Shown here one piece after another: positions 9,219 through 27,008 of a DNA stretch of 64,000 nucleotides. Position numbers and translations under genes: made by a program. Source of the DNA: Vannielia litorea (GTDB taxonomy: Bacteria; Pseudomonadota; Alphaproteobacteria; Rhodobacterales; Rhodobacteraceae); NCBI RefSeq assembly GCF_900142295.1, contig NZ_FSRL01000001.1, forward strand, positions 496,001 through 560,000, given 5' to 3'. Each line of letters begins with the position of its first letter. Position 1 is the first letter of the stretch. Under the pieces are notes generated by a model, which did no database searches, was not told where the DNA came from, and worked only from the letters and a program-made list of their open reading frames with translations.

Positions 9219-10679
<1,461 letters not shown>

Positions 10680-10705: not shown

Positions 10706-11953
10706 TCAGGCGGCTTCTTCCGCGGATTTCACAAGCTCGAGCAGCGACTGGGCCAGTTTCTGGATGTCGCGGCGGAGCGGGTTTTTCGGGGCGAACTCGG
10801 CCAGCGGCTGGCCGTGGTCGGCGCTGTCGCTCACCTGCTTGGCGCCGTTGGCCAGCATCAGCTCGATGTCGATGTCGAGCCCTTCGGCCATCCGCTTGAC
10901 GCGGGCCTTGCCGGAGAGGTCGGTGAACTTGGGCGAGCGGTTGAGCGCGAAACGCAGCTTCTCGTAGGGCAGGTCCTCGGACTTGAGCGCCCGGATCATC
11001 CGCATCACGTTTTGCGCCGAGCGCATGTCGAGCTCGATGGGCGCGAAGTAGACCTGGGCGGCATCCAGCACCGTCTCGGTCCAGGCGCAGACGGTCGTGG
11101 GCATGTCGATCACGACGAAGTCGAAGTTGGCCCGTGCGACCTCCAGCACGGCGGAGATGTCATCCGGCGTCGCGATGTCGAGCGGGAGCATCTCGGCGGG
11201 GGCGGTGAGCACGTGGATCTTGTCGTTGTAGGATTGCAGCGCCGCCATGAAGGCGGAGCTGTCCATCGACGCGGTATCGCTCAGGATCTCGTAGACCGCT
11301 TCCTTGCGGTCGAGGTCGAGAAAGGTGGCGGTCGAGCCGAACTGGAAGTCGAGGTCGATCAGGCAGACGCGCGGATTGTCCTTCTTCTCCTGGGTGGCGA
11401 GCTCGTAGGCGAGGTTCACCGCGAAGGTGGTGGCCCCGGTGCCGCCGGCCATGCCGTGCACGGCCAGCACGACGCCGTCACGGTCGCCGGTGGCGGTGAG
11501 CGTGGGCGTGGCGGCCTGGGGCGCAAGCTGCACCGGTGCGGGTGCGGGCTTGTTCAGCCGCTCGATCGCATCGTGCAGGGCGTTCTCGGGAAGCGGGTAG
11601 GGAACGAAGTCATCGGCGCCGTTGTGCAACAGCTGGTGCAGGACAATGGGGCTGACATCCTCGGCAATCAGGATGACCTTTACGCCCTTGTCGCGGGCCT
11701 TGGTGATGAGCGCGGTGATCTCGGGAAGGTTGGCCTCGTCCTGGCTGTCGAGCGCGACAGCGAAGAACTTGAGCTCCTCGGCCTCGTCCTGGTCGAGGAA
11801 GGCGGAGGCGTCGGCAAAACCAAGGTCACCCCAGCTCTCTCCAAGCTCGGTTTCCATGTCTTCGATCAGAAGATCGAAATTCTGCACGTCGCGCGACACG
11901 GTGCAGGCAGTGATCGGCGCCGGTTCTGGCTGCAATACTGCGGTCATCGTCAT
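10706..11953 (-). CDS. tadZ: TadZ/CpaE, ParA-like localisation ATPase of the Tad pilus
   Basis: The 415-residue protein has an atypical receiver-like N-terminal domain (25-135) followed by a MinD/ParA-type ATPase. Its deviant Walker A is GMAGGTGATT at 167-176 and its Walker B region is VCLIDLDFQFGS. CpaE/TadZ proteins localise the pilus machine to the pole. Two ATG codons at 11953 and 11947 compete for the same GAGG; the second has the better spacing. The gene is upstream of tadA in the same run. A long gap of about 390 bases separates it from the OmpA gene. Confidence 0.93.
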   Translation of the reverse strand: MTMTAVLQPEPAPITACTVSRDVQNFDLLIEDMETELGESWGDLGFADASAFLDQDEAEELKFFAVALDSQDEANLPEITALITKARDKGVKVILIAEDVSPIVLHQLLHNGADDFVPYPLPENALHDAIERLNKPAPAPVQLAPQAATPTLTATGDRDGVVLAVHGMAGGTGATTFAVNLAYELATQEKKDNPRVCLIDLDFQFGSTATFLDLDRKEAVYEILSDTASMDSSAFMAALQSYNDKIHVLTAPAEMLPLDIATPDDISAVLEVARANFDFVVIDMPTTVCAWTETVLDAAQVYFAPIELDMRSAQNVMRMIRALKSEDLPYEKLRFALNRSPKFTDLSGKARVKRMAEGLDIDIELMLANGAKQVSDSADHGQPLAEFAPKNPLRRDIQKLAQSLLELVKSAEEAA

Positions 11954-12344: not shown

Positions 12345-12992
12345 TCAGCGTTCTTCGTCGCTGCCCTGTTCGTCGATGATGACCAGCTCGTGGGGCTCGG
12401 TCGCCGAGGTGATCGTCTCGGTGTAGGAGAACAGCGCGTACTTGCCGTCCTGGAACTGCTGGCGCTTGCCCAGGAAGCCCGACACCTCGGTGACCGTGCG
12501 GCGGTTGCGGCGCTCGCGGGTCTCGGTGTGGATGAGCGGCTGGGTCTCGCCGAAGCTGACCACCGCCTCGAGCCGGGAGCGGGAGATCCCGCGCGACACG
12601 AGGTAGTTGACCGCGGCCCGTGCCCGGCGCAGGCCGAGGGCCTTGTTGTAGCCCTGCGAGCCCACCAGGTCGGTGTGGCCGAAGACGCGGAACCGCACCG
12701 TCGGATACTGGGCGATCCACGAGGCCTGCTTGTCGAGGGCGGCCCGGGCCGAAGCATCGAGCGCCGCCGAGTTGAAGGCGAAGTTGATCGTGGTCGGGGC
12801 CTCGGCGGCGAACTTCCGGCTCAGTTCCACGGCGGCGTTGAGCTGGCCGGTGTGGACGAGGTGGTTGTTCATCGTCGCATTGCCGAAGCCGCCGATGTCG
12901 AGGTCGCTGCCCACCACACGGTCGGCGGAGTCGCTGCACCCGGCCACCGCGAGCGCGGTGGAGAGGATGCCAAGGGTGAGTGCCTTTTTCAT
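12345..12992 (-). CDS. OmpA-family lipoprotein of the Tad locus
   Basis: The 215-residue protein has a lipoprotein signal (lipobox VAGC) and a C-terminal OmpA/peptidoglycan-binding domain at about 65-175, with the hallmark segment FGHTDLVGSQGYNKALGLRRA. It would tie the outer-membrane secretin to the cell wall. OmpA-like proteins stand at this place (between rcpA and tadZ, like RcpB or CpaD) in many tad loci. The ATG at 12992 is favoured over the GTG at 13001 because GGAG lies eight bases before it. It overlaps no other frame and follows rcpA by five bases. Confidence 0.88.
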   Translation of the reverse strand: MKKALTLGILSTALAVAGCSDSADRVVGSDLDIGGFGNATMNNHLVHTGQLNAAVELSRKFAAEAPTTINFAFNSAALDASARAALDKQASWIAQYPTVRFRVFGHTDLVGSQGYNKALGLRRARAAVNYLVSRGISRSRLEAVVSFGETQPLIHTETRERRNRRTVTEVSGFLGKRQQFQDGKYALFSYTETITSATEPHELVIIDEQGSDEER

Positions 12993-12997
12993 GGTCT

Positions 12998-14449
12998 TCA
13001 CTCCATCACGTAGCCGTAGGAACCGGAAAAGTCCTGCCGGGCCACCTCGCCTGCGCCGCCCTTGGTGGAGGTGCGGGTGGAGGAGCCGTTGGCGGGCATT
13101 GCGTCGTTGCCGCCGAGGAAGAACTCACGCTCGGTGGGCGGGCGCACACGGTCGGTGGGAAGCGCGAGGGCTTCACCGGCTGTGGGCGTCACCAGGTGGG
13201 CCGAGACGATGATCACGAGCTCGGACTGGTTGCGCTGGTAGTCCGACGAGCGGAACAGGGTGCCCAGGATCGGGATGTCACCGAGCCATGGCACCTTGGA
13301 GATGCCGTCGGTGAAGTCGTCCTGCAGCAGCCCCGCGATGGCAAAGCTCTCGCCGTCGCGCAGCTCCACGGTGGTCGAGGTCGACCGGGTGCGGAAGCCG
13401 TTCACGGTGAAGCCCGCATCGGTGAAGCCAATGGTGGTATCGACACCCGACACTTCGGCGGTGAGCCTCAGGTTGATGTTCTTGCCGATCACGCGGGGCG
13501 TGAAGTTCAGCAGGATGCCGAAGGGCTTGAAGTCCACCGTCACCGAACCGTTGTCGTTGGCCACCGGCACCGGGTACTCGCCACCGGCGAGGAATTCGGC
13601 GTTCTGGCCGGAGAGCGCGGTCAGGTTGGGCTCCGCCAGCGTGCGGATGAAGCCGCGGGTCTCGAGCGCCTCGAGCAGGATCGCCAGCTCGACGTTGGAG
13701 CCGCCGAAGCCGAAGGAGATGGCGCCGGTCGACTGCCCCGAGCGGGTGACGCTGGTGTTGGGGTCGCCGTCGAACAGGTTCGACAGGTTGTTGCCCTCGA
13801 GATAGGTGCCGGATCCACCGGCCGCGCCGAAGTTGCCCTCACCGCCGGAGACACCCGCGATGCCCACGGACGCGGAAAGCGACTTGGACACGGAGCGGTT
13901 CATCTCGGCGAAGCGGACCTTCAGCATCACCTGCTGCGAGCCGCCCACGGTCATCAGGTTCGACACCCGCTGCGGCGCATAGCGCTGGGCGAGGTCGAGC
14001 GCCCGGTCAAGCGATGCGGCCGAGCTGACGATACCCGAAAGGATCAGGCCGTCGTTGGCGGGGCGCACCTCGATCTGCTCGCCCGGAAGCACCTCGCGGA
14101 GGCGCTCCTTGAGCTCGGAGATATCCGGCGTGACCTGCACTTCGACGTTGGTGATGAGCGAGCCATCGGGCGCCAGAAGGGTTAGCGTCGTCCGCCCCGG
14201 CGCCTTGCCGAGCACGTAGATCGTGCGCTCGGAGAGCGTGGAGATGTCGGCGATGCCGGGGTTTGCAATGGAGAGTTCCGCGAAGGCCTCGTCGCTCTCG
14301 ACGACGACGGCCCGGTTCATCGGAACTTTCAGGCTGGAGGAGGCCGATCCGGACATGACCCGGAGGGATTGGGCGGCCGCCCCCTTTATATTGGGAATGA
14401 TTGCAGCAAGGCCGATCAGGCCCGCCGCCATAAGCGCTTTAAGTTTCAT
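12998..14449 (-). CDS. rcpA: RcpA/CpaC, outer-membrane secretin of the Tad pilus
   Basis: The 483-residue protein has a signal peptide (1-26), an N-terminal BON/pilus-secretin N domain (about 30-170) and a secretin core (about 230-430) with the segment VPWLGDIPILGTLFRS typical of the secretin C-terminus. It forms the outer-membrane channel for the Flp fibre. In standard tad operons rcpC/cpaB lies directly upstream; here five kilobases of chaperone-usher genes separate them. The C-terminus carries an extra 50-residue Ser/Thr/Gly-rich tail after the secretin fold. Confidence 0.93.
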   Translation of the reverse strand: MKLKALMAAGLIGLAAIIPNIKGAAAQSLRVMSGSASSSLKVPMNRAVVVESDEAFAELSIANPGIADISTLSERTIYVLGKAPGRTTLTLLAPDGSLITNVEVQVTPDISELKERLREVLPGEQIEVRPANDGLILSGIVSSAASLDRALDLAQRYAPQRVSNLMTVGGSQQVMLKVRFAEMNRSVSKSLSASVGIAGVSGGEGNFGAAGGSGTYLEGNNLSNLFDGDPNTSVTRSGQSTGAISFGFGGSNVELAILLEALETRGFIRTLAEPNLTALSGQNAEFLAGGEYPVPVANDNGSVTVDFKPFGILLNFTPRVIGKNINLRLTAEVSGVDTTIGFTDAGFTVNGFRTRSTSTTVELRDGESFAIAGLLQDDFTDGISKVPWLGDIPILGTLFRSSDYQRNQSELVIIVSAHLVTPTAGEALALPTDRVRPPTEREFFLGGNDAMPANGSSTRTSTKGGAGEVARQDFSGSYGYVME

Positions 14450-14645: not shown

Positions 14646-15596
14646 TCAGTAATTCACCGTCACCACCACGCTGTCGGTGTAGGTGCCGAACTCGGCCGAC
14701 TGTCCGGCGTGAATCCGGCCGTAGATGGTGTAGCCCTGGTTCAGGCCGGCGCCGGTGGCGTCGAGGTCGGTCGTGGGGGTCGCGCCCCAGACGGCGCTGC
14801 GGGCGGCATCGCGGTAGAGCCCGTATTCAAGCACATTGGCCCCGTTCTTCATGCGTCGGCGCGCCGGATCGGTGCCGCCGCCTGTCCCCTGGCCGAGGGT
14901 CACGGTGTAAGGCGTGGCATCGGAGCAGCGCACGTTCAGCGAGGCGGTCTGGTCGACGGGTGCGGTCAACTGGGTGGGGATCACCCCGAAGTTCATGCTG
15001 CTCACGTCGATCTCGCAGCTCGCCTCGAGCTGGGCCGACACGGTGAACGGGGCGGGGGTGCTGGTTTGGCCGAGAAGCCCGCAGGCCAGCACGCCGTAGG
15101 TGAGCTTCACCTGTGTCGGGCCGCTGAAGTTGCTGGCGTAGCTGCCGGTGGGCACGCTGGGCGCGTTCTCGACGATGCGGCCGTAGATCGGGATGTCCAC
15201 GGTTCCGCCGAGACCGACCAGCATGGTGATGGACCGGAACACCTCGGTGGTCGGCCCGGTCACGGCGGAGGAACCGCCGAGGCGCAGGTCGTAGGCAAGT
15301 GCGCGGCCCGAGCCGTTGCGCATGTAGCGCGGCGAGTTGCCGGCCCCCGCGCCGCCCGAGCCGGGGCCGATCTGCACGCAGACGCCGACGACATCGGCGA
15401 CCAGCAGCAACGGATTGCTGCAGGTGACGCGGATGTTGCCCTGGGTCGTGTTGTTGGCGCCGGCGCGCAGCGTGACGGTGCCGAAGTTCACATCGGTGAC
15501 CGTGGCGGTGCAGTTGGCCGCCTGGGCGGTCATCGGTGCGACGGCCAGGGCGGCCATCGCCGCGAGGGTGCGGAGGGTGCGGGGGATCATTGGCAT
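14646..15596 (-). CDS. Spore coat U-type two-domain pilus subunit, probable tip adhesin (CsuE-like)
   Basis: The 316-residue protein has a signal peptide ending in AQA|A, then two spore coat U (SCPU) domains, about 27-165 and 175-316. Each shows the Cys pair and the closing strand (VKLTYG and VVVTVNY) used in donor-strand exchange. Two-domain subunits in archaic chaperone-usher systems such as Csu are tip adhesins. The gene overlaps the usher stop by ten bases, so it is translationally coupled. A second ATG at 15590 overlaps the usher TGA and is an equally good start. Confidence 0.85.
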   Translation of the reverse strand: MPMIPRTLRTLAAMAALAVAPMTAQAANCTATVTDVNFGTVTLRAGANNTTQGNIRVTCSNPLLLVADVVGVCVQIGPGSGGAGAGNSPRYMRNGSGRALAYDLRLGGSSAVTGPTTEVFRSITMLVGLGGTVDIPIYGRIVENAPSVPTGSYASNFSGPTQVKLTYGVLACGLLGQTSTPAPFTVSAQLEASCEIDVSSMNFGVIPTQLTAPVDQTASLNVRCSDATPYTVTLGQGTGGGTDPARRRMKNGANVLEYGLYRDAARSAVWGATPTTDLDATGAGLNQGYTIYGRIHAGQSAEFGTYTDSVVVTVNY

Positions 15597-18157
15597 GTGA
15601 ACGGTCCGATCTGCGGTTGCAGCTCGCCGGTGGGCGTGAAGGCGAAGCTGGCCCTGCAGCTGCCTCCGCCCGCGAGCTCGACCTTGAGCGTGTTCTGGCT
15701 CTTCAGCCCGTCGACGTAGGTGAGCCCGTCGTAGCCCACAGGGAAGCCCGCGCCCTTGCCGCCGAGCTTGGCCTCGGAGCCGGGGGGCAGGGGCGCGCCG
15801 GAGGCGGAGACCAGCGTGACGAGCGCGGAAGCGTCGGCCTCGCCGCTGGCGCCTTCGAGTTTGAAATCCACCAGCACACCGCCGCGCCGGCTGGGCACCA
15901 CATCGGCCCCGGTGGCCCCGAGCACGACACTGTCATCGAGCTTTTTGGGGTCGACCGACACATGGCTGAGGCGGAAGGAGCTGAGGCCGGGCACCAGCGC
16001 CACGCCGCCCATGCCGGTGCGGGTGACCTCGCGGTGATGCAGCTGCACCGGAAGGTCGGGCACGCCGGTGCGCACGACGGCGAAGCTGTCGGAGATGGTG
16101 TTGCCGAGCGCAGGCTGCCCGCCCGCTATGACCACGGCCCCTTCGGCCGCGCCGCGCAGGTAGCTCTGGCCATCGGAGTACAGCAGTTCGCCCGAGACCT
16201 TGCCGTAGCGCCCGAGATACTCGACCGATCCGCCACCGTAGTAACGCCCGTCCTGGCGCTCCAGTCGGGCGGTGTAGCCGTAATCGCCCACGCCGTCAGA
16301 GATGGCGCGGCTGGCATAGAGGCTCTCGATCCGCTCGCCGCTGGAGGAGGTGGAGACCTGCGCGCGCCCGGTGGTGCGTTTGCCCAACGGCATGGAAAGC
16401 GCCATGGAAAAGCGGCTCTCCTCGCTCTCGAAGTTGTGGCTGCCGTAGACCGAGAAGTTGGCGCCGCCCTTGTCGAGGCTGTGCGAATAGGCGACCGAGG
16501 CGATCAGGTCGCGGCTCGAGGCGCGCTCGGAGCGCACCAGCGAAAGGCCGAGGTTGCGGTAGTCGTCGGAGATCGGAATCCCCACCGAGATCACGTCGGT
16601 GATCGTGGGAAACTCGAGCAGGGAGCCTGCATCGGAGATCGCGTCGGCCCCGAGATACTCGAGGCCGGTGACATAGGCGAGGTCGGCAAAGCCTGCCTCG
16701 GCGCGCAGGCTCGAGACCTGAAGATCGACCTTGCCGATCTGGGTGCTGAGCGTGCCGTAGGCAAAGCCCGCCGAGGTGCCGAGATAGTCGCTCTGGCCGA
16801 CCGCGAAGGAGAGCTCGCCGATCCGGGTGGCTGCATGAATACCGAAACCCGCCAGCAGCAGGTCATCACTGCCTTCGACATGGGCCTCCAGGGTCATACG
16901 GCGGGTCAGGCCATAGGCGAGGGTCGCCGAATAGAGATCCGTCCCGCCATACTGGCCGCTCTCGGAGCCGTAGGCCTCGCGGGCACGGCCGGTTTCGAGC
17001 GAAAAGTCGAAGCGGCCCTTTTTCAGAAGGTTCGGCGAGGTGAAGAAGGAGACCTCGCGGGTGACCTCGCGCCCGGTCGCGTCGCGCACCACGACGACAG
17101 CATCGCCGCCTCCGGAGGCGATCGGCACATCCTCGAGCCGGAAAGGACCGGGCTGGACCTGGCCGGTGTAGGCGCGGTTGTTCTCGATGTAGACGTCGAC
17201 GGAGGAGGGCACGGCGGCGGCCCCCTCGAAGGAAAACAGCTGCTCGGTCACGAGGTCGGAGCGCAGCGAGAAGTCGCGGCGGAGCTGGACCCCGCCCATC
17301 CGGATCGGGCGCGACCAGGCGGTGGCCGAGGTGGTCACGTCGCCCAGGGTGAGGGTGACGGCGCGATTGAGATTGTGCAGGTCTAGCCGGGTCTCCTGCC
17401 GGATGAACCCGCCCGCCTGGGGGTTGTTGGGGTAGTGGCGGTAGAAGCCGGTGGAGGAGAGGGTGCCGAAAGGGGTGAAGACCCAGCCGTCGACCGCGCC
17501 GGTGAAGCTGGTGAAACTGTAGTTGCCGCTGCCGTCCGGTCCGGCCTGGGCATCGAGCGCGTAGTTCAGCACGGCGCCGTAGCTCTGCTCGGGCTTGGTG
17601 AACTCGGGGCGTTGGGCCGCCGATTGCACCTTGGGCAGAAGCGCCGAGAAGGGCGCGGTGATGGCGATGCTCTGGGAAATCGGGTCGTAGTCGTAGTCGA
17701 CCCCCTCGATCTCGTCGAGATAGACGCGGCCGAGGTTGGTGGCTGGCGCCCGGATGCCCAGCTCGCGCAGCTCGGAACGGGTGGCCGAGATCCGGCCCGT
17801 GCCGCCCTGCTGGACAAACTCGGCAACAAGGAAGGTGTCCTGCCCGTTCAGCGCCACTTCGAGGGCGAGCGGCGTGTCGGCGGCGGGGGCGTTCACCCGT
17901 CCTGCGACCGAGGCGGTGATCTCGAGCCCGTCGCTCACCTGGGTGCGGTCGACGGTGTCGGCACGGGTGGGCGTTTCGGGCGCGCCGACGACGAGGCCGC
18001 CACCGGCGGGCGCCGCCGGGGCCGGGTTGCCCACGACGAGGCCGCCCGTGGCCTGCTGCGCCAGCACGGGGACCGCGGCCATCAGAGCCGTGGCGGCCAG
18101 CGCCGCGAAGGCGCGCTTATAAGATTGTGAAACCGTTCTTGTCACGGGTGCCCCCAC
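15587..18157 (-). CDS. Outer-membrane usher of an archaic (Csu-type) chaperone-usher pilus
   Basis: The 856-residue protein has a signal sequence, an N-terminal periplasmic domain (about 60-185), a FimD-type beta-barrel and plug region (about 190-690) with the motif FSLRSDLVTEQLFSFEGAAA, and a short C-terminal domain ending FTCQ. It secretes and assembles chaperone-bound subunits through the outer membrane. The open frame starts at GTG 18157; GTG 18145 (VTRTVSQS) is an alternative. The unusual repeat of GGLVVGNPAPAAPAGGGLVVG near residues 38-60 forms a linker after the signal. It lies between the chaperone and tip genes. Confidence 0.9.
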   Translation of the reverse strand: MGAPVTRTVSQSYKRAFAALAATALMAAVPVLAQQATGGLVVGNPAPAAPAGGGLVVGAPETPTRADTVDRTQVSDGLEITASVAGRVNAPAADTPLALEVALNGQDTFLVAEFVQQGGTGRISATRSELRELGIRAPATNLGRVYLDEIEGVDYDYDPISQSIAITAPFSALLPKVQSAAQRPEFTKPEQSYGAVLNYALDAQAGPDGSGNYSFTSFTGAVDGWVFTPFGTLSSTGFYRHYPNNPQAGGFIRQETRLDLHNLNRAVTLTLGDVTTSATAWSRPIRMGGVQLRRDFSLRSDLVTEQLFSFEGAAAVPSSVDVYIENNRAYTGQVQPGPFRLEDVPIASGGGDAVVVVRDATGREVTREVSFFTSPNLLKKGRFDFSLETGRAREAYGSESGQYGGTDLYSATLAYGLTRRMTLEAHVEGSDDLLLAGFGIHAATRIGELSFAVGQSDYLGTSAGFAYGTLSTQIGKVDLQVSSLRAEAGFADLAYVTGLEYLGADAISDAGSLLEFPTITDVISVGIPISDDYRNLGLSLVRSERASSRDLIASVAYSHSLDKGGANFSVYGSHNFESEESRFSMALSMPLGKRTTGRAQVSTSSSGERIESLYASRAISDGVGDYGYTARLERQDGRYYGGGSVEYLGRYGKVSGELLYSDGQSYLRGAAEGAVVIAGGQPALGNTISDSFAVVRTGVPDLPVQLHHREVTRTGMGGVALVPGLSSFRLSHVSVDPKKLDDSVVLGATGADVVPSRRGGVLVDFKLEGASGEADASALVTLVSASGAPLPPGSEAKLGGKGAGFPVGYDGLTYVDGLKSQNTLKVELAGGGSCRASFAFTPTGELQPQIGPFTCQ

Positions 18158-18214
18158 CTTCGACCACGTTCATGATGACACCGGCACACGCGGGAGGCGT
18201 GCGCCGGAGGTCGT

Positions 18215-18670
18215 TCACGACGAGAAGCAAAGTGGCACGGAGTGGCGGACCTGGAGTTTCACCGCCTGGTCGGCCTGCTCGATGCCGGGGAGGCGGTCGA
18301 TCAGGACGCGGTAGCACTCGCGGCCCCGCACCTTCCGGCCCTTGGTCCGGACGATCCGTGCGGTCAGCTCTTGCCGGGGCTTCAGCTTGACCACGGGTGG
18401 CGAGATCACGACGTCGCGGGTAGATTTGACCCGGTTCGGATCGGTGCCTTCGCGCCAGGCCATGACCCGGAGCTGGACGATGGAGGTGCCGCGCCCGTCG
18501 GCCTTGACGGTGACGGTGGTCTGGTTGACGCCGGGGGCCTCGAGTTTGGTTGGAGAAACCGAAAGCGACTGGGCGATTGCGCCGGTTCCGCCGGCGACGG
18601 TCAGGCCGGCCACCCCGAGAAGGGCGGCCAGCGTGGCCTTCTTGACTGCGGTGATAATGCTGCTCTGCAT
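18215..18670 (-). CDS. Pilus chaperone, N-terminal domain only (C-terminal domain missing)
   Basis: The 151-residue protein has a signal peptide and one PapD-like N-terminal immunoglobulin domain. The G1-strand region shows the expected ISPPVVKLKPRQELTARIVR and CYRVLIDRLPG motifs. It then stops at RHSVPLCFSS, where a normal chaperone of about 230-250 residues enters its second Ig domain. Only 57 bases remain before the usher start, so the second domain is absent, not just frameshifted. A one-base shift at the end opens a longer tail but it does not look like a chaperone domain. It may be a decayed or a minimal chaperone. Confidence 0.75.
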   Translation of the reverse strand: MQSSIITAVKKATLAALLGVAGLTVAGGTGAIAQSLSVSPTKLEAPGVNQTTVTVKADGRGTSIVQLRVMAWREGTDPNRVKSTRDVVISPPVVKLKPRQELTARIVRTKGRKVRGRECYRVLIDRLPGIEQADQAVKLQVRHSVPLCFSS

Positions 18671-18742
18671 CGTTTTTATCCTTTTATCCTCGTTTATCGA
18701 GGCCTGCCTGTTTTGAGACCTCTTAGCACATTTCGGTCAGGC

Positions 18743-19234
18743 TCAATAGGTTAGAGTGACCAGCACCGTATCGGAGTAGATACCGGCGGAGTAATTGCCC
18801 GCAGCAATGGTGCCGTAGACCGGGATGTTCTGCGGGGTGATTGCGGTCAGGTCGCCCTCCCAGATGTTCTCGTCGATACCGACCTCGTCTGTGTGCGTGG
18901 AATCCGAGAAGATCGAGTAGGGGATCGTTGCGGAGCCGGAGTCCGACATGTTGCGCGAACCACCCGATGACGCGGCACCGGCCCCGAGCTTGACCGACAC
19001 ATCGGTCTTGGCGGAGCTGCACACCACGTTGATCAGGCCGGGGATCGTCTGGCCTGCATCGGTGTTGGTGTCGATGCTGCCGAAGCCGAGCGCCGTCACG
19101 GCGGTGACGGTGCAGCTGTCGAGCACGATGGCGTTGACGGAGAGGTTGGTGGTTTTCTCGGCGGCTTGTGCGGCCCCCATGCTCATGCCCATGCCGACAG
19201 TGGCAGCACAGGCAAACTTAGCAAACTTGGTCAT
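18743..19234 (-). CDS. Spore coat U-domain major pilin (archaic chaperone-usher system)
   Basis: The 163-residue protein has a signal peptide ending MGAAQA|A and a single SCPU domain with a Cys pair (SCTVTAV... and VVCSSAK) and the C-terminal strand DTVLVTLTY. Its size and single domain suit a major fibre subunit that needs the usher and chaperone encoded next to it. The ATG at 19234 has AAGGGAA upstream. It is the first gene of the chaperone-usher run, preceded by a non-coding 325-base region that contains the cpaB terminator. Confidence 0.85.
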   Translation of the reverse strand: MTKFAKFACAATVGMGMSMGAAQAAEKTTNLSVNAIVLDSCTVTAVTALGFGSIDTNTDAGQTIPGLINVVCSSAKTDVSVKLGAGAASSGGSRNMSDSGSATIPYSIFSDSTHTDEVGIDENIWEGDLTAITPQNIPVYGTIAAGNYSAGIYSDTVLVTLTY

Positions 19235-19559
19235 GGCGTTCCCTTCCAGACAGACGGGGGAGCAAATCACGCGTGCCGGACCATCCAACAGCCACTCCAC
19301 CGAATATGTGTCAATTTCGCCCTGAAATTTTGGCTTTTATTTGGTCAACCTCGGTCGGTGTGGCGGTCAAGATTGGGTATTACTGTGTGACGAATGCATG
19401 CTTTTTGCGCCAATACACGTTTCGTGCGATTGCCTTGAATCACCCTTCAACCTGGCGTTGCCTATCTCATCTTTGGATTGAATGGAGCATCGGGAAGCGA
19501 AAAAGCCCGGCGCCTCGCGGGAGCGCCGGGCCTTTTGGCAAGTGATTTGGCGGAACGGG
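19235..19559. other. Non-coding region upstream of the chaperone-usher genes
   Basis: About 325 bases with lower GC than the neighbours and no credible gene. It holds the strong terminator of rcpC at 19500-19535 and, between 19240 and 19490, the likely promoter of the spore coat U gene on the minus strand. The terminator plus AT-rich segment indicate that the chaperone-usher genes are transcribed on their own. Confidence 0.55.
19500..19535. terminator. Bidirectional intrinsic terminator after rcpC
   Basis: GCCCGGCGC (19505-19513) pairs perfectly with GCGCCGGGC (19523-19531). Five A bases precede and four T bases follow, so on the minus strand the stem is followed by a T tract. It lies 25 bases after the rcpC stop and separates flp-rcpC from the chaperone-usher genes. 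Confidence 0.85.
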
Positions 19560-20393
19560 TCAGTTGGTGCAGGGGATCGGCTGCTCGATCACCTCGGCTC
19601 CCTTGCGGACCTTGGTGGTGCAGACGCGCTCCACCTCGACCTGGCGCACTTCCTTGTCCTTGATCCCGAGCAGGCGCTTCTGGTCGACCTCGACCTCGGC
19701 GGCCACGGTCTCGTCTTCCGCGCCAACGAGCGAGAGCGACAGGCGCCCGGTGCTCTGGGCCTGGGCCAGCGATGCCACCTGATCGGGCGAGATCGCCACG
19801 GTGACGGTGCGCGCAATCGACGGGCTGGAATGGCCCTGGTCGTAGGTCTGGTCCACCGCGATGAGCTTGATGCCCGCCTCGATGAGCTTGGTCACCTCGC
19901 GGCCTTCGATGCCGCCGGTCCAGTACACGTCGACCCGGTCACCGGGACGCAGGAAGCCCGACACGCCCGAGGTGGCGTCGACCTTGATGGCGAAGGCGCG
20001 CATGCCCTTGTCCAGGCGCGAGGTGATGCCTGCATCCTCGCCGGGTTCCGTCACCTTGGATTTCAGCACCGGCTCGAACTTGGACATCGCGGTGATGATG
20101 GTGCGCGGGTCCTTCCCGGCGGGAAAGAGATCTTCCATCTTCAGGTAGTGGCCTGCGGGCAGGCTGTCTTGCTGCCAGCGGATGGCAATGACGTCCTCGG
20201 GCATGAGGCGCTCGCCGTAGGCCTTGTTCTTGGACACCACGATCACGTCGACCGTGGGCTTTGCCTGTTGCTGCGCCGCGATCAGCGCATTGCGCTCGGC
20301 GGTCGTGCGGGCGAGATAGCCCTGCACCATGTAGGCGGCAAAACCCGCCAGGGCGACGCCGATCGCCAGAACCAGTGCGAAAACGATACGCAT
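19560..20393 (-). CDS. rcpC: RcpC/CpaB, periplasmic Tad pilus assembly protein
   Basis: The 277-residue protein has one N-terminal helix (residues 2-22), an SAF/beta-clip domain (about 45-110, with YGERLMPEDVIAIRW) and the RcpC/CpaB domain (about 115-215, with LRPGDRVDVYWTGG). CpaB is required for pilus assembly and works with the secretin. The ATG at 20393 is preceded by AAGGAAA. It sits after the two flp genes and ends in a strong terminator, so it is not directly linked to rcpA as in most tad operons. Confidence 0.93.
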   Translation of the reverse strand: MRIVFALVLAIGVALAGFAAYMVQGYLARTTAERNALIAAQQQAKPTVDVIVVSKNKAYGERLMPEDVIAIRWQQDSLPAGHYLKMEDLFPAGKDPRTIITAMSKFEPVLKSKVTEPGEDAGITSRLDKGMRAFAIKVDATSGVSGFLRPGDRVDVYWTGGIEGREVTKLIEAGIKLIAVDQTYDQGHSSPSIARTVTVAISPDQVASLAQAQSTGRLSLSLVGAEDETVAAEVEVDQKRLLGIKDKEVRQVEVERVCTTKVRKGAEVIEQPIPCTN

Positions 20394-20621: not shown

Positions 20622-20807
20622 TCAGTACTGCTGGACTTCCATGCTGCCCAGCACGTTGCCGATGCTGCCGGACGTCTGGGTCGCGCCCTGGGCGATCATC
20701 GCGATGACCGCGATCCCGAGGCCCACGATGGCGGCTGTGAGAACGACCCAGTCGACCGTCACGGCGCCGGAGTCGTCGCGGGAGAAGCGGGAGAGAAATT
20801 TAATCAT
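20622..20807 (-). CDS. flp: Flp-type pilin (second copy)
   Basis: The 61-residue prepilin has a short basic leader, then the processing site DSG|AVTVDWV and a 20-residue hydrophobic helix (VVLTAAIVGLGIAVIAMI) followed by a short polar tail ending EVQQY. TadV would cut after the Gly. The start at 20807 is chosen because GAGGA lies eight bases upstream; an ATG at 20822 lacks a good site. It is one of two similar pilins in tandem, each followed by its own hairpin. Confidence 0.9.
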   Translation of the reverse strand: MIKFLSRFSRDDSGAVTVDWVVLTAAIVGLGIAVIAMIAQGATQTSGSIGNVLGSMEVQQY

Positions 20808-21022: not shown

Positions 21023-21226
21023 TTAGTCGGTGGAAGTCGGAACGCCCACGGAGACCGAAGCCACCTCGTTCGAGATGTTCTGGGCCAGGGTGTTCACACC
21101 GCCGGAGACGGAGGCGAGAACGGCGATGCCGAGGCCCACGATGGCGGCGGTCAGCACGACCCAGTCAACGGTCACGGCACCGTCTTCGTCGTTGCGGAAG
21201 TTCTTCACGAGAGTGAACAGTTTCAT
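21023..21226 (-). CDS. flp: Flp-type major pilin (first copy)
   Basis: The 67-residue prepilin has a leader MKLFTLVKNFRNDEDG, cleavage before AVTVDWV, one hydrophobic helix and a Ser/Val/Thr-rich tail ending VGVPTSTD, a plausible site for O-glycans. The GGAGG ribosome-binding site eight bases before ATG 21226 is strong. It is the first gene of the locus and follows a 370-base upstream region with a perfect palindrome. At mature positions 5 and 6 it has Asp-Trp where classical Flp pilins have Glu-Tyr. Confidence 0.93.
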   Translation of the reverse strand: MKLFTLVKNFRNDEDGAVTVDWVVLTAAIVGLGIAVLASVSGGVNTLAQNISNEVASVSVGVPTSTD

Positions 21227-21596: not shown

Positions 21597-22478
21597 ATGC
21601 GTCAGATGATGTTTGCAGGCCTCGCTGCGGCCGGTGTTTGCCTGTCCGGCCCTTCCTGGGCCGAGACCTCGGGGGCCTACCCCGACTTCACCTTCAAGCG
21701 TGTGAAGGCGGGCAAGGGGCTGCCCGGCAAGAGGATCACCGTGCAGATCGACCCCAAGGCCCAGGCCGAATACATCGCCGCGCGTCCGAATGCGCCGCAA
21801 AAGGGCGAGGGCGCGGAGCCCGCGGTGGCCACGGCAGGCGAGGGAGAGGTGATCACGGCCAGTGTCGACCCTGTGGCCCTGCCCGACGCGCCGACCTATG
21901 GCTGGTTCTGGACGGCGATCTCGCCCGATCTCAGCGCCAAGGCGCCCGGACGGCTCGACGCCGCGGTGCAGATGCTCAGCAACGGCCCCGAGGGTCAGAC
22001 GGTAAAGGCGCCCCGGCTCTCGCACATGAAGAAGATCTCCGACAAATATGGTGCCGAGATCCTGAAGGCGACCATCGGGACCGATGTGTCGCCGGCGCTG
22101 GTGCTGGCGGTGATCGGGATCGAGAGCTCCGGCAACGTGACCGCCGTCAGCTCTGCCGGGGCCCAGGGGCTGATGCAGCTGATGCCCGACACGGCGGCCC
22201 GCTTTGGCGTGACCGATTCCAACGATCCGGTGCAGAACATCAAGGGCGGCGTGGCCTATCTCGACTTCCTGATGAAGGAGTTCGACCGCGACCCGATGCT
22301 GGTGCTGGCCGGATACAATGCGGGCGAGGGCGCCGTTAAGAAGAATTCAGGGGTTCCGCCCTATGCCGAGACGCGCGACTATGTGCCCAAGGTGCTTGCG
22401 GCCTGGACGGTGGCGCGGGGGCTGTGCCTGACCCCGCCGCAGCTTGTCACCGACGGATGCGTCTTCGCAGGAGGCTGA
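21597..22478 (+). CDS. Secreted lytic transglycosylase (SLT domain)
   Basis: The 293-residue protein has a signal peptide (1-22, ending SWA|E) and a C-terminal SLT domain (about 145-265). The catalytic Glu is E176 in IGIESSGN, with the family segments AGAQGLMQLMPDTAARFGV and LAGYNAGEGAV. It cuts peptidoglycan, and transglycosylases of this kind often open the wall for pili or secretion machines. Residues 23-140 are a non-conserved region. It is divergent from flp1 and five bases before the HAD-UbiA gene, so it is the first gene of that operon. Confidence 0.92.
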   Translation: MRQMMFAGLAAAGVCLSGPSWAETSGAYPDFTFKRVKAGKGLPGKRITVQIDPKAQAEYIAARPNAPQKGEGAEPAVATAGEGEVITASVDPVALPDAPTYGWFWTAISPDLSAKAPGRLDAAVQMLSNGPEGQTVKAPRLSHMKKISDKYGAEILKATIGTDVSPALVLAVIGIESSGNVTAVSSAGAQGLMQLMPDTAARFGVTDSNDPVQNIKGGVAYLDFLMKEFDRDPMLVLAGYNAGEGAVKKNSGVPPYAETRDYVPKVLAAWTVARGLCLTPPQLVTDGCVFAGG

Positions 22479-22483: not shown

Positions 22484-23920
22484 GTGGCTGACGCGAAACC
22501 GCTGGTGCTCGATGTCGACGGCACCTTCCTGAAGACCGACCTGCTGCTCGAGAACTTCTGGGCCGGGCTGGGGCGCGACCCTGTGGCGACGCTGGCCGTG
22601 AGCTTTCGGCATCTGCGCCACCCCGAGAAACTGAAGGCCGAACTGGCGCGAATTGCCCCGCTGCGCACCGACCTGATGCCGGTGAACCCCGATATCAGGG
22701 CGCTCGCGGTAAAGTCGAAGGCGGCAGGGCGCGAGGTGGTGCTTGCCTCCGCCTCGACCGAGCCGCTGGTGAAGCAGGTGGCCGCCGATCACGGGCTGTC
22801 GGACCGGGTGTTTGCCTCGACCACGGAGATCAATCTCAAGGGCAAGGCCAAGGCCGGCGTGCTGGTGGAGGCCTATGGCGAGCAGGGCTTCGACTATGCC
22901 GGCAATGCGCCGGTGGATGCCAAGGTCTGGGACCACGCCGAAAACGTGATCATGGTGGGCGAGCAGCCTTCGGTCGCCGCCCGCCTCGCCGCGAAGGGCC
23001 GCAACGTGGTGACCTATGGCGGCGGCTGGCGCTTTGCCGACCTCATGAAGGCGCTGCGCCCGCACCAGTGGGTGAAGAACGTGCTGCTGCTGCTGCCTCT
23101 GGTGGCGGCGCATCAGTTCAGCTGGGCGGCGCTGCTGCCGGTTCTCGTCGGCATCCTTGCATTCTCCTTTGCGGCCTCGTCGATCTACATCGTCAACGAC
23201 CTGCTCGATCTCGAGGCCGACCGGCTGCACAAGAGCAAGTGCAGGCGGCCCTTCGCCGCCGGCACGGTGCCGATCGGGGTGGGGATGATCATAGGGGTGG
23301 CGCTGGGGCTCTCGGCTCTGATCCTTGCCGCCGCGCTCAACTGGGCGTTCTTCGGGATCGTGGTGCTCTACATCGTCACCTCGCTGGCCTATTCGCTGAA
23401 GCTGAAGCGGATGCGCTGGGTCGATATCGTCGTGCTGGCCTCGCTCTACACCATCCGGGTGGTCGCGGGGGCCGCAGCGGGAGAGGTGGCGATCACCAGT
23501 GCTTTGCTGGTCTTCGTCTTTCCGGTCTTCATCACGCTGGGCTGCGTGAAGCGGATCACCGAACTGGCCAAGGCGGAGGATGACGAGCGGCTGCCCGGGC
23601 GCGGCTACGGGCGGCCCGACCGGCACGACCTGCTGAACGTGGCCGGGATCGGCGTGTTCGGGGCGCTGCTGATCTTTTTCATCTATACGCTGAGCCCGCA
23701 GGCAAAGGCGCTCTACCCGGATCGCTGGCTGCTTTGGGCGGCCATGCCGTTCCTCGCCCATTGGCTGATCCGGATGGTGCGGCTCGGCTGGCAGGGAAAG
23801 ATGGATTACGACCCCATCGTCTTTGCGGCCCGCGACCGGGTGGGGCTGGGCGTGATGCTCTTCACCCTGTCGCTGATGTTCTGGGCGGCGAAGCTCTGGC
23901 AGCAATGGTTCGGCGCGTAG
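22484..23920 (+). CDS. HAD phosphatase-UbiA fusion, probable decaprenyl-phosphate 5-phosphoribosyltransferase
   Basis: The 478-residue protein joins an N-terminal HAD-like domain (DVDGT at 10-14, about 1-190) to a polytopic UbiA prenyltransferase domain (about 195-478) with the metal-binding NDLLDLEADR near residue 237 and a second Asp-rich YSLKLKRMRWVD region. UbiA proteins of the Rv3806c type put phosphoribose from PRPP on decaprenyl phosphate. The HAD part could remove the 5'-phosphate, a step done by a separate enzyme in mycobacteria. This role is inferred from the convergent dprE1/dprE2 genes. The GTG at 22484 has AGGAGG upstream. Other UbiA substrates cannot be excluded by sequence. Confidence 0.8.
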   Translation: MADAKPLVLDVDGTFLKTDLLLENFWAGLGRDPVATLAVSFRHLRHPEKLKAELARIAPLRTDLMPVNPDIRALAVKSKAAGREVVLASASTEPLVKQVAADHGLSDRVFASTTEINLKGKAKAGVLVEAYGEQGFDYAGNAPVDAKVWDHAENVIMVGEQPSVAARLAAKGRNVVTYGGGWRFADLMKALRPHQWVKNVLLLLPLVAAHQFSWAALLPVLVGILAFSFAASSIYIVNDLLDLEADRLHKSKCRRPFAAGTVPIGVGMIIGVALGLSALILAAALNWAFFGIVVLYIVTSLAYSLKLKRMRWVDIVVLASLYTIRVVAGAAAGEVAITSALLVFVFPVFITLGCVKRITELAKAEDDERLPGRGYGRPDRHDLLNVAGIGVFGALLIFFIYTLSPQAKALYPDRWLLWAAMPFLAHWLIRMVRLGWQGKMDYDPIVFAARDRVGLGVMLFTLSLMFWAAKLWQQWFGA

Positions 23921-23974
23921 CGCGCGGCGGACCGCCCGAGCGGCTGGCCTCCTGCGACGGAGGGGGCTGCGGGG

Positions 23975-24718
23975 TCAGACCGAGAGCTTCTTGAAGATTG
24001 GCTCGGGAACGCTGCGGATGATGGCCATGATGTAGCGCCAGAAGAACGGCGTGTAGAGCACGTTGCGGCCCTTGCGCCCGGCCTTCAGCATGTGGGCAGC
24101 GACCTGCTCGGGGGAGGCGACAAGAAACATGCCCTCGACATCCCATGTCATGGCCGTGTCCACGAAGCCGGGCTTGACCGTCATCACATGCACGCCGGAG
24201 CGGCCGAGACGGTTGCGCAGGCCTGAGAGGTAGGTTGCAAAGCCTGCCTTGGCGGCGCCGTAGACGTAGTTGCCGATCCGGCCCCGGTCCCCGGCGACCG
24301 AGCCCACGCCGATGACGAGGCCCTTGCCGCGGGATTCGAGCCGGGGCGCGAGCATCTGCAGAAAGCGGGCGGGGCCGGTGAAGCTGTCGGTCACCGTGCC
24401 GTCGATCAGGGAAGGGTCGGCGTCGATGCTCTGTTGCGGGGGCATGGAGCCCACGAAGACCGCGCAGTTGATCGGGCCGTCACCGGCGAGGGCTTCGGCC
24501 TCGGCCAGGAGGGGGGCGAAGGTTTGCGCGTCGCGGGCGTCGAACCGGGCGGCCTTTGCGTTGGTTGCACCGCGCAGGGCAAGGTCGGTGGCCTGCGCCT
24601 CCAGATCGGGCATGTCGCGGCCGGCGAGCAGAAAGTTGGCGCCTTCAACGGCAAGATGGCGGGCCATGGCGCGGGCCATCGAGGAGGTGGCGCCGAGGAG
24701 TATCCAGGTTTCGGTCAT
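23975..24718 (-). CDS. dprE2: DprE2-like NAD(P)-dependent short-chain reductase
   Basis: The 247-residue short-chain dehydrogenase has the nucleotide motif GATSSMA at 9-15, Ser140 (GVGS) and the catalytic Y153-x3-K157 in YVYGAAKAG. The C-terminus RNVLYTPFFWRYIMAIIR followed by KKLSV matches the end of mycobacterial DprE2 closely, including the APxxFRYVM and IFRKL pattern. DprE2 reduces the 2-keto intermediate made by DprE1, giving decaprenylphosphoryl-D-arabinose. The start codon overlaps the dprE1 stop (ATGA), so the two are coupled as in mycobacteria. Confidence 0.88.
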   Translation of the reverse strand: MTETWILLGATSSMARAMARHLAVEGANFLLAGRDMPDLEAQATDLALRGATNAKAARFDARDAQTFAPLLAEAEALAGDGPINCAVFVGSMPPQQSIDADPSLIDGTVTDSFTGPARFLQMLAPRLESRGKGLVIGVGSVAGDRGRIGNYVYGAAKAGFATYLSGLRNRLGRSGVHVMTVKPGFVDTAMTWDVEGMFLVASPEQVAAHMLKAGRKGRNVLYTPFFWRYIMAIIRSVPEPIFKKLSV

Positions 24719-26007
24719 TTGGTGCTCCTGAGGCTCAGACGGCGGGTGAGATCGGTCTCGTAGCGGTGCTCGGGGTCCGCGGCGTTGACGGCGGCGGCCC
24801 AGTCGGAGAGCTCGGGGTACATGCCGGGGATGTCCTCGGCCCGCGCCACGGAGTCCTTGGCGAAATAGATGCGCCCGCCGGCGGCCTTGGTCTCGGCGAT
24901 GAGCTCCTGGATCAGCCCGCGGGTGCCGGTGCGATTGCGGAAATCGACCGCCAGCGTGTAACCCTCCATCGGAAAGCTGAGATGCCCAGCGCGGCCCGCA
25001 CCCATGCGTTTGAGCACCGCGAGCGGCGAGGCGAGGCCGGAACTGGCGATCGCTTCGAGCATCGAGCGCAGGGTGCCGCGCGCGGTCACGGGCACGACGC
25101 ATTGGAACTGGTGAAAACCCTGGCTTCCGTAGAGCCTGTTCCAGTCGTGGATCCGGTCGAGCGGGAAGAAGAAATCGTCGATCGGCTTGACCAGGGTGCG
25201 CCCGGCGGCCGGGACGCGGCTGTAGTAGAGCTTGTTGAAGAGCCGCACGACCGGCGCGGCCAGTGCCCAGCCGGGGGCGTTGAACGGCACCCTGCGGCCG
25301 CGTTTGGCGGACGGCACGAGGCCTGCGCCGGTTTCACCCTCTTCGAGGATGCCGCGCCCGAGGGACTCTCCCGTGGCGGTGGCGTCGATCCAGCCGACGG
25401 TATAGGTGGCCTCGCTCTCGTCGAGCAGATCGAGGAAGCTCTCGAGGTTTTCGGCGCGGCGCTCGGTGACCATCATCACGTCGACCTTGGCGCGGAGCAG
25501 CCTGAGCCGGGCGGAGCCGATCGGGCCGGTCTGGCCGAGGCCGCCGACGGTGGCGGCAAAGAGCGGGTCCTGCGGGGTGAGCACCTTGCCGGTCGCAAGG
25601 GTGATCTCCGTCACATGCTGGCCGAAGCTGCCTGCGCCATGGTGGTTCTTGCCATGCACGTCCATGGCGATGCAGCCGCCGACGGTGGCAAAGCCGGTGC
25701 CGGGCATGACGGCGGGCAGGAAGCCCCGGGGAGCGAGGATGCGGGCCAGGTCGGAGATGGTGGCGCCGGCCTCGACATGGATCACCGCTTCGGCCGCGTC
25801 GAAATCCAGGATCTTGTCGAGCCGCGCCATGATGACGGCGCGCCCCTCGCTCACCAGCGCGGCGTCGCCATAGGAGCGGGCGTTGCCGATGGCGGGGCCT
25901 TCGGTGGCGAGCGCGGCAAGCGCGGCGCTGCGTTCGGGGCGGGCGAGTTCACCCGTGGCAGAGAGCACGCGGCCCCAGCCTGTCCATGTGGTTTTCTTCC
26001 AGCTCAT
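24715..26007 (-). CDS. dprE1: DprE1-like FAD-dependent decaprenylphosphoryl-ribose 2-oxidase
   Basis: The 430-residue protein has an N-terminal FAD-binding PCMH domain (about 5-175) with RSYGDAAL at 44-51, GTGFATVGG and the strongly DprE1-like HGKNHHGAGSFG at 118-129, then an aldonolactone-oxidase-type C-terminal domain. The catalytic Lys in AKDS (K384) is kept. At the position of mycobacterial Cys387, the covalent target of benzothiazinones, the sequence reads GYTLAVDF, with Ala353. It oxidises the 2'-OH of polyprenylphosphoryl-ribose. It overlaps the downstream dprE2 and the upstream membrane protein gene. Confidence 0.9.
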   Translation of the reverse strand: MSWKKTTWTGWGRVLSATGELARPERSAALAALATEGPAIGNARSYGDAALVSEGRAVIMARLDKILDFDAAEAVIHVEAGATISDLARILAPRGFLPAVMPGTGFATVGGCIAMDVHGKNHHGAGSFGQHVTEITLATGKVLTPQDPLFAATVGGLGQTGPIGSARLRLLRAKVDVMMVTERRAENLESFLDLLDESEATYTVGWIDATATGESLGRGILEEGETGAGLVPSAKRGRRVPFNAPGWALAAPVVRLFNKLYYSRVPAAGRTLVKPIDDFFFPLDRIHDWNRLYGSQGFHQFQCVVPVTARGTLRSMLEAIASSGLASPLAVLKRMGAGRAGHLSFPMEGYTLAVDFRNRTGTRGLIQELIAETKAAGGRIYFAKDSVARAEDIPGMYPELSDWAAAVNAADPEHRYETDLTRRLSLRSTK

Positions 26008-27008
26008 GACATTGCCTTGAGAGAGGCCCGCTCGGCGAGGGGAAAGACCAGAAGGCCGATGCCGATGGCGAACCAGAGGGTTGTGACGCGGATGACGGCG
26101 GTGGCGGGCACCGAGACCTCCAGCGGGATGCCGTGGAGCTTGAGCAGCGCGATCATCGCCGCCTCGGCTCCGCCCACGCCGCCCGGCGCGCCGGTGAGGC
26201 CGCCCGCGAGGGTGGAGAAGACGAAGATTGCCACGGCGGAGAAGAAGCCGATATCGGCACCCATCCACATCAGCAGCAGGTGGAAGGCGTAGCCCTCGGC
26301 CACCCAGCCGGCGAGCCCGAGAGTGAGCGATCCGGCGATGACGGGCAGGGTGGAGAACTGCCGGAGCGAACGTGCGGCGCTGCGGATGCGGGCAAAGAGC
26401 CGCGGCAGCCAGCCTGTGGCGCGGTAGCAGAGGGTCACGAGCAGGGTGAGCAGAGCGGGGCGGGTGACCACCACGGAGGCCACCAGCGCCAGCACGGCGA
26501 CCGAGACCGCGCCCTTGATGCCCATGGCGGAGAGCGAGAGCGCGACGGCGAGGATCAGGCCCATGGCGGCGAGGTCGGAGGCCCGGTCGACCAGCACCAG
26601 CGGCGCGGAGCGGGTGAAGGGCCAGCCGGCCTCGCGGCTGATCCAGCGCATCCGCACCAGCTCGCCCACGCGGCCGGGTGTGGCGGTCATGGCGAAACCG
26701 CCCAGGAAGTGGCGCATGTTGGCGACGGGGGTGAGCGGCAGGCCGAGACGTCGGGCGAAGAGATGCCAGCGCACCCCGCGGAAGAGGTAGTTGACGAGGG
26801 AGAGGGCAAAGAGCGCAGACAGTTGCAGCGCCGAGAGCTGCAAGACCTGTTGCCAGCTCTCCTTCCACCCGCCCGCAAGTGCCAGCCCGAGGAAGCCGAG
26901 GGCGAAGAGGCCGAGGAGCAGAAGCACGAAATAGAGCTCACGTCCCACGCGGGGCGTGCGTGCACCGGATCTGGCGCTGGGTTGTCTGCTGCTCGTAGCC
27001 ATTGTCAT
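26004..27008 (-). CDS. YbhN/UPF0104 (AglD-type) membrane protein, candidate lipid-sugar flippase
   Basis: The 334-residue protein has about eight hydrophobic helices and the family signatures NYLFRGVRWHLFARRLG, AMTATPGRVGELVRMRWISR and GGLTGAPGGVGGAEAAMIALL, typical of the lysylphosphatidylglycerol synthase TM-region/UPF0104 group. Members are linked to moving lipid-linked sugars or lipids across the membrane. The stop overlaps the dprE1 start, so it is the first gene of a three-gene operon making and perhaps flipping polyprenylphosphoryl-arabinose. The flippase role is inference. ATG 27008 or 27002 could be the start; neither has a strong site. Confidence 0.75.
   Translation of the reverse strand: MTMATSSRQPSARSGARTPRVGRELYFVLLLLGLFALGFLGLALAGGWKESWQQVLQLSALQLSALFALSLVNYLFRGVRWHLFARRLGLPLTPVANMRHFLGGFAMTATPGRVGELVRMRWISREAGWPFTRSAPLVLVDRASDLAAMGLILAVALSLSAMGIKGAVSVAVLALVASVVVTRPALLTLLVTLCYRATGWLPRLFARIRSAARSLRQFSTLPVIAGSLTLGLAGWVAEGYAFHLLLMWMGADIGFFSAVAIFVFSTLAGGLTGAPGGVGGAEAAMIALLKLHGIPLEVSVPATAVIRVTTLWFAIGIGLLVFPLAERASLKAMS

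Follow-up and report, generated by a model that had tools for sequence, protein, structure and literature searches.

The 64,000-nucleotide stretch of Vannielia litorea DNA analysed here (the window, with coordinates counted from its first letter) contains a predicted D-arabinofuranose pathway divided over the two ends of a Tad pilus locus. Its five genes encode a HAD-UbiA fusion, DprE1-like and DprE2-like enzymes, a YbhN-type membrane protein, and a candidate GT-C transferase designated GTC. The module probably puts D-arabinofuranose on the Tad (Flp) pilus (probability about 0.65). In the proposed route, the fused HAD domain would take off the 5-phosphate, DprE1 would oxidise and DprE2 would reduce carbon 2 to give polyprenyl-phosphoryl-D-arabinofuranose, YbhN would flip this lipid to the periplasmic face, and GTC would transfer the sugar to a Flp pilin, perhaps at a C-terminal serine or threonine. 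The steps up to the arabinose lipid are predicted from homology and conserved catalytic residues, the flipping from operon structure and an exchange with GtrA, and the transfer from fold, co-occurrence, locus position, and pilin sequence. We infer the acceptor and the chemistry of Tad pilus arabinosylation from these. The broader proposal is tentative, at slightly less than even odds: an undescribed system, widespread in Rhodobacterales, in which a GT-C family reads a Ser/Thr-aromatic Flp end and uses a donor from HAD-UbiA, DprE1, and DprE2 with a YbhN-type flippase.

The donor genes occupy positions 22484-27008. The HAD-UbiA gene (22484-23920, + strand, 478 residues, GTG start), a predicted phosphatase joined to a polyprenyl-phosphate phosphoribosyltransferase, converges on a minus-strand operon of YbhN (about 26004-27008, start uncertain), DprE1 (24715-26007, 430 residues), and DprE2 (23975-24718, 247 residues), as given by the open reading frame listing and family scans. 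The YbhN/DprE1 and DprE1/DprE2 junctions are 4-base ATGA overlaps. The original prediction placed these four genes together and called the pathway complete. All four are present, though not on one strand, and the donor genes are in place, while completeness was premature from four genes because the candidate transferase lies 18 kb off, outside 22484-27008. The assignment to an arabinofuranose-lipid pathway holds at the level of prediction, from homology to the solved Rv3806c, DprE1, and DprE2; each of these three proteins is closest to its counterpart among solved structures and keeps the catalytic motifs. The predicted product of the donor set is, with little doubt, polyprenyl-phosphoryl-D-arabinofuranose.

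The UbiA part is predicted to be a polyprenyl-phosphate phosphoribosyltransferase of the Rv3806c/ORF15 type. It matches 8j8j (Rv3806c), named as the M. tuberculosis DPPRS structure (Kelly et al. 2024, PMC11127046), at E 2.8e-27, and the next solved UbiA protein at 6.7e-5. The fusion has PF12710 and PF01040 domains and passes its own NCBIfam model, NF006088 ('UbiA family prenyltransferase', function unnamed), with 507 bits at a cut-off of 351. Three NCBIfam 'decaprenyl-phosphate phosphoribosyltransferase' models score 124-141 bits on the UbiA part, the best missing the equivalog cut-off of 207 bits. The next other prenyltransferase model scores 50 bits, homogentisate phytyltransferase 33, and ubiA_proteo 25, and no menaquinone model is among the NCBIfam matches. 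A menaquinone, ubiquinone, or homogentisate prenyltransferase identity is ruled out by these scores and the solved-structure matches; that the UbiA part does not side with the menaquinone or homogentisate enzymes is a result of model scores, not of a family tree. Conserved motifs include DVDGT at residue 10, NDLLDLEAD at 238, and KRITEL at 356. The last two represent the NDxxDxxxD and KRxxEL motifs of ORF15/DPPRS and align to 8j8j. In ORF15 the N and D residues were needed, and R and E variants kept some activity (PMC11127046). The HAD domain is just over the PF12710 cut-off (28.9 versus 27), and the loop I nucleophile Asp is present in DVDGT.

The DprE1-like 2'-oxidase matches NF053785 at E 6e-105; its best solved match is 4aut, and its similarity to solved DprE1 (E 3.7e-64) extends over the whole length. 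The DprE2-like 2-ulose reductase matches NF053786 at E 3e-45, and its best solved match, 21gq_C, is a DprE2 (E 3.6e-27). Both miss the NCBIfam equivalog cut-offs, DprE1 with 352 of 500 bits and DprE2 with 155 of 250. DprE1, DprE2, and the UbiA part are homologous to the mycobacterial enzymes and lie outside the NCBIfam equivalogs. The motifs named beforehand were found, namely RSYGDA at residue 44 and HGKNHHGAGSFG at residue 118 of DprE1, and the end pattern of Rv3791, RYIMAIIRSVPEPIFKKL, at DprE2 residue 228. Alignment to solved DprE1 shows conservation around HGKNHH and FAKDS. The residue aligned to the cysteine of mycobacterial NVCVDF is alanine; this cysteine is presumably Cys387 of mycobacterial DprE1, bound by benzothiazinones. 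The genes for DprE1 and DprE2 are adjacent in 40 of the 40 other loci read, with one truncated DprE2 match. A single TGA lies within the dprE1 match of two genomes with a divergent dprE1 (G007 and G069), which indicates a pseudogene or a sequencing error. Two loci from the same genus as the window (L033 and L034) have three genes between dprE2 and HAD-UbiA, one for a 713-residue protein that is sensor kinase-like with a receiver domain by eye, and two further small ones.

Among 149 genomes from the order, 55 gave a dprE1 match. The close class comprises 28 genomes from 20 genera (identity at least 53%, window genome counted), and the divergent class 27 genomes (at most 46%). Stretches of 13.8-19.9 kb were fetched around 40 of the other 54 dprE1 loci, 27 close and 13 divergent, so that the divergent class was read in context in 13 of its genomes. 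YbhN stands just before DprE1 in 26 of the 27 close loci and HAD-UbiA is nearby in 23; two of the four remaining genomes (G106 and G146) have the fusion elsewhere, near Tad genes. The gene order in all 13 divergent loci is HAD-UbiA, GtrA, DprE1, and DprE2, where GtrA was identified by PF04138 and NF037976 in one locus and by similarity in the other 12. At E 1e-5, none of the 27 close loci has a GtrA match and none of the 13 divergent ones has a YbhN match. None of these 13 divergent operons is at the Tad locus.

The window YbhN matches PF03706 at E 4e-39 (135 bits, gathering score 33.4) and is above the cut-off of TIGR00374. GtrA has been proposed to flip undecaprenyl-phosphate sugars (PMC11127046). 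Flippase activity of the UPF0104/YbhN family was predicted by comparative work (PMC5898192), and for its P. aeruginosa representative GpgF glycolipid flipping is predicted but unproven (PMC12713373). Because GtrA occupies the place of YbhN in the divergent operons, operon structure and this exchange support YbhN as the predicted flippase of the arabinose lipid.

The candidate GT-C arabinofuranosyltransferase GTC (3191-4810, + strand, 539 residues) lies at the end of the Tad locus far from the donor genes, with a 4-base overlap between its stop and that of the convergent tadV. Its ATG start at 3191 was picked by homology. GTC has no Pfam or NCBIfam match up to E 1 and no PHROGs match. The AlphaFold model, built from 57 sequences, has a predicted local distance difference test score (pLDDT) of 90.9 and a predicted template modelling score (pTM) of 0.91. 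Foldseek ranks 1-15 in the PDB are all GT-C enzymes, including OST, AftA, AglB, DPY19, AftD, ALG3, ArnT, EmbC, and EmbB, at E 8e-4 to 0.3 and with low TM-scores (0.20-0.39 by query), and ranks 16-50, the rest of the matches listed, have probabilities of at most 0.13. A profile search for sequence relatives in the PDB gave one chance match (E 4.9). Since the TM-scores are low, GTC is read as a GT-C fold in its own sequence family, probably an unnamed one. The loop after the first helix (KHEGDxxHL, PHxDFxTPxG) has D38, H56, and D58 invariant in the 57 sequences. D38 and D58 would supply the conserved acid of the first periplasmic loop that marks GT-C enzymes, with sidedness predicted from the helix count.

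When every long frame in the 13 divergent loci was compared with the family profile of GTC (A1), two loci gave a match, in each case the gene directly behind dprE2: L061 (E 5.6e-27) and L066 (E 1.6e-20). The GTC family therefore also occurs inside dprE operons. About 14 bases separate these GTC-like membrane proteins (L061 11415-13004, L066 6901-8499) from the preceding dprE2 match, and both operons have GtrA. Other membrane proteins near divergent operons (L063 and L060) were compared as possible GTC relatives, with a negative result. The profile had no match over 20 GTC-free control Tad loci. GTC is very probably the user of the arabinose lipid donor.

GTC and dprE1 occur together in two samples. 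With the window protein as query at E 1e-10, a count that leaves distant relatives in G058 and G034 outside, GTC is present in 29 of the 149 genomes: 27 of the 28 in the close class, two of the 27 in the divergent class, and none of the 94 without dprE1. Fisher's test for 27 of 28 versus 2 of 121 gives p 3e-26, uncorrected for kinship. TadA (E at most 1e-120) is found in 141 of the 149 genomes, and Tad alone therefore does not account for the GTC distribution. When about 85,000 species genomes were scanned, 374 stretches encoding GTC relatives turned up. Tad genes are within the stretch in 72 of the best 80 of these 374 loci, and among 36 named carriers hand-picked from those 80, dprE1 is present in 35, of which 34 are of the close class and one, Roseisalinus antarcticus (G169), of the divergent class. 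A class-wide GTC profile search found three of 289 genomes, namely the own genome and two partial distant matches.

The association was also evaluated on a tree of six flanking proteins of the locus from 50 genomes with hand-picked taxa. GTC changes state 8 times by parsimony, compared with a mean of 15.9 and a least value of 10 in 500 shuffles. A dependent model of evolution is better than an independent one for GTC with close-class dprE1 (likelihood ratio 31.6, p 2e-6, 50 taxa), and the same test for GTC with any dprE1 gives p 1e-5.

Most close-class donor loci lie between scoAB and a lytic transglycosylase gene heading a Tad pilus locus. At the opposite end, the gene at 1741-3060 (- strand) encodes a 439-residue protein without a Pfam match and with faint NCBIfam matches to AAA ATPases. 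This gene stands beside GTC in all 20 of the GTC loci fetched, and tadV is on the other side in 17. Among these 17 are G014 and G100, whose dprE1 is of the divergent class, and four genomes (G087, G106, G072, and G146) with dprE1 about 150 kb off or on another contig. GTC is about 23 kb from tadA in G049 and G045, and the parts are on three contigs in G011.

For comparison, two sets of GTC-free genomes were hand-picked from 113 with TadA and without GTC. The first set (20 loci, for synteny and pilins) comprises 12 without dprE1, 7 divergent, and G122, and the second (20 more, for pilins) has no dprE1. In the first set the order is flp-cpaB-rcpA-cpaE-tadA-tadB-tadC-tadD-tadV followed by the 1741-3060 gene, apart from a few loci in which one piece is absent or divided. 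The GTC site is empty in all 20 of these loci, where 63-234 bases lie between the tadV match and that of the 1741-3060 gene. With or without GTC, the 1741-3060 gene closes the Tad locus. In six GTC-free loci scoB is beside the transglycosylase, with 44-435 bases between them, and the transglycosylase adjoins the Tad genes also in genomes without arabinose genes. A chance neighbourhood of donor genes and pilus is ruled out by the recurring synteny. The earlier suggestion of a link to a pilus holds as a prediction: the Tad neighbourhood recurs in most loci read, and a Tad-linked candidate transferase was found. The pilus concerned is predicted to be the Tad (type IVc) pilus and not that of the chaperone-usher cluster. 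This cluster (14646-19300, - strand; a spore coat U domain protein, an usher with PF00577, and small subunits) lies between rcpA and cpaB. The gap between those genes is 0.2-0.7 kb in GTC-free loci with both mapped and 0.4 kb in L033, too short for the cluster, and its partnership was set aside for this reason.

A Flp pilin is the likely acceptor. The window has two Flp-type pilins on the - strand with a GAVTVDW core, a 61-residue protein ending in SMEVQQY (20622-20807, no Pfam match above threshold) and a small 67-residue protein ending in PTSTD (21023-21226, PF16982 Flp1_like at E 0.016, below threshold). The C-termini of Flp in carriers tend to have Ser or Thr followed by Tyr, Phe, or Asn, often as IATY or TTF. 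The ending [ST][YNF]N? is present in 15 of 21 carrier genomes versus 1 of 20 others in the set that defined it, and in 22 of 28 versus 3 of 20 among other genomes (p 2e-5, kinship not considered). With kinship considered, GTC goes with the pilin ending at p 6e-4 (46 taxa; 18 of 26 versus 1 of 20), mostly with the defining set reused. These counts leave out loci without any Flp found (6 of 27 GTC-positive loci in the first set, 2 of 30 in the second), and for 6 of the 36 named carriers no cpaB locus was among the best 30, to which that search was limited. Overall Ser/Thr content of the Flp tails differs weakly (28% versus 25%, p 0.04, with G122 among carriers) and was dropped in favour of the C-terminal ending. 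Glycosylation has been described for Flp1 of Aggregatibacter (PMC6182317), and RcpC was once implicated in Flp glycosylation (PMC12307814). An open-access literature search turned up no paper naming a transferase for Tad pilins in the text available, and a survey of Rhodobacterales Tad genes from 2021 (PMC8383342) has none of the six terms looked for in its main text.

Several observations weigh against arabinosylation of the Tad pilus by this module. The pilins of the window end in QQY and STD and lack the ending, as do those of G014 and G100; pilins of L033 and L034, from near relatives of the window genome, end in ASY. The ending was noticed post hoc and could be a sign of pilin structure or lineage and not of an acceptor. 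Of 340 Foldseek matches, just 2 have E at or below 0.001. The tree behind the dependence tests is one of locus genes, and on it GTC carriers cluster, though not in one clade. Genome G154, a metagenome-assembled genome, has GTC and no dprE1 at E 1e-30, and G122 has the four donor genes, no GTC, and a pilin ending in VGQ. The operon of G087 is without YbhN. The HAD-UbiA fusion was not found in the G052 and G055 genomes at E 1e-20, and the donor of G052, which keeps dprE1, dprE2, ybhN, and GTC, is unexplained without it. The fusion at the G122 locus is matched only over residues 181-477, and a second, divergent fusion is also present. In G052 a gap of about 40 bases between the transglycosylase match and that of dprE2 (L042, 8700-8750) takes the place where others have HAD-UbiA. 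The G055 locus appears to have lost the Tad core and HAD-UbiA, and the GT-C, dprE1, and ybhN frames remain; an apparent deletion there (L041, 10584-11835), as in Marivivens donghaensis (L192), fuses DprE2 to TadD in one open frame.

O antigens are the acceptors in the known three-component pentofuranose systems (PMC11127046), and GTC could likewise use the arabinose lipid on another surface glycan such as lipopolysaccharide, capsule, or exopolysaccharide, the Tad neighbourhood then reflecting shared regulation of attachment. The location of the 13 divergent operons off the Tad locus, two of them with a GTC-like gene, and the pilin endings of the window are in line with this. In contrast, GTC is beside Tad genes in the four genomes whose dprE cluster is elsewhere, the pilin C-termini go with GTC, and G055, in which GTC is kept and TadA was not found at E 1e-120, has lost the fusion too. 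This alternative is considered unlikely.

It is improbable that the donor genes make the arabinose lipid for an arabinosyltransferase elsewhere in the genome while GTC uses another donor. The GT-C fold leaves the donor unfixed, no solved structure is a sequence relative, and G154 and G122 each have one of the two genes without the other. Co-occurrence is nonetheless near all-or-none in two samples and includes divergent dprE1 (G014, G100, and G169), and GTC homologues stand directly behind dprE2. A lipid pentose other than D-arabinofuranose, for example ribofuranose made through changed DprE-like chemistry, would fit the scores of DprE1 and DprE2 under the equivalog cut-offs and is very improbable in view of their full-length similarity and kept active-site segments. 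The presence of a DprE pair also points to arabinose, given that Citrobacter fusions lacking DprE yield ribose, or xylose where another epimerase is present (PMC11127046).

The module proposed for Tad pilus arabinosylation resembles several known systems. The three-component system of Citrobacter youngae O1/O2 has the same fusion of an N-terminal HAD and a C-terminal UbiA domain (ORF15), shares the lipid donor, flippase, and GT-C transferase, and DprE1/E2 homologues are reported for the arabinofuranose cases (PMC11127046). In this respect the window module resembles the Citrobacter PRP-PPPRS fusion more than the mycobacterial layout. It differs by having YbhN where Citrobacter has a MATE flippase, a GT-C gene beside Tad genes and not in the donor operon, and a pilin in place of the O antigen as predicted acceptor. 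Another candidate predicted to act on pilin, from P. syringae, has its phosphatase domain at the C-terminus (PMC11127046).

The mycobacterial pathway (Rv3806c, Rv3807c, DprE1, DprE2, Rv3789, and Emb/Aft) has the same predicted donor chemistry and a GT-C end user, whereas the HAD phosphatase domain is within the fusion here. Structures of AftA, AftD, and Emb are in the PDB, and none is a sequence relative of GTC. In P. aeruginosa group IV, TfpW, a GT-C enzyme, puts D-arabinofuranose from a DprE-type pathway onto a type IV-family pilin (PMC11841053, PMC11127046), as is likewise proposed here. The tfpW gene accompanies type IV pilins and is beside its type IVa pilin gene, unlike GTC, which has Tad (type IVc) genes as neighbours and a donor fusion with an N-terminal HAD domain. 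TfpW pilin arabinosylation in this group is reportedly the work of Kus (2008) and Harvey (2011, 2018). This kind of modification gives P. aeruginosa protection from pilus-specific phages (PMC11841053).

The noeCHOP genes of Azorhizobium are alphaproteobacterial genes that their authors compared with the mycobacterial arabinose-donor genes; they belong to a symbiosis operon with Nod factor as acceptor, and no pilus link is given in the available text (PMC2443382). The UPF0104/YbhN relatives include the archaeal AglD domain, the MprF flippase domain, and GpgF, with a proposed role in the movement of lipids or lipid-linked sugars. A polyprenyl-phosphate pentose substrate is predicted here, whereas none is described in the available parts of those sources (PMC5898192, PMC12713373).

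A candidate transferase and target for the arabinose lipid, linked with the Tad locus across many marine genera, are new here. If Tad pilus arabinosylation is true, arabinofuranose use extends to another pilus class, in convergence with TfpW, the poorly understood YbhN family gains a polyprenyl-phosphate-sugar role, and Tad pili might be shielded from pilus-binding phages. The P. aeruginosa precedent makes a role in host-phage contact testable in marine bacteria (PMC11841053).

The Tad locus of the window further consists of a TadV prepilin peptidase (4807-5301, PF01478 at E 1e-9), two proteins with TPR Pfam matches (5318-6175 and 6206-6772), the first TadD-like, TadC and TadB (7224-9204, PF00482, with PF19360 TadB_TadC_N for TadB), and a TadA/CpaF ATPase (9219-10679, PF00437 at E 7e-68; TIGR03819 with 352 bits, below the cut-off of 373). 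These are followed by a CpaE/TadZ-like ATPase (10706-11953, PF13614 AAA_31), an OmpA-domain protein and the RcpA secretin (12345-14449, PF00691; PF00263, PF13629), and CpaB/RcpC (19560-20393, PF16976 at E 9e-25). The names TadD (from position and type), CpaE, and RcpA are presumed, and the other Tad names rest on Pfam. All of these genes are on the - strand, and the lytic transglycosylase (SLT) gene (21597-22478, PF01464 at E 2e-25) is on the + strand.

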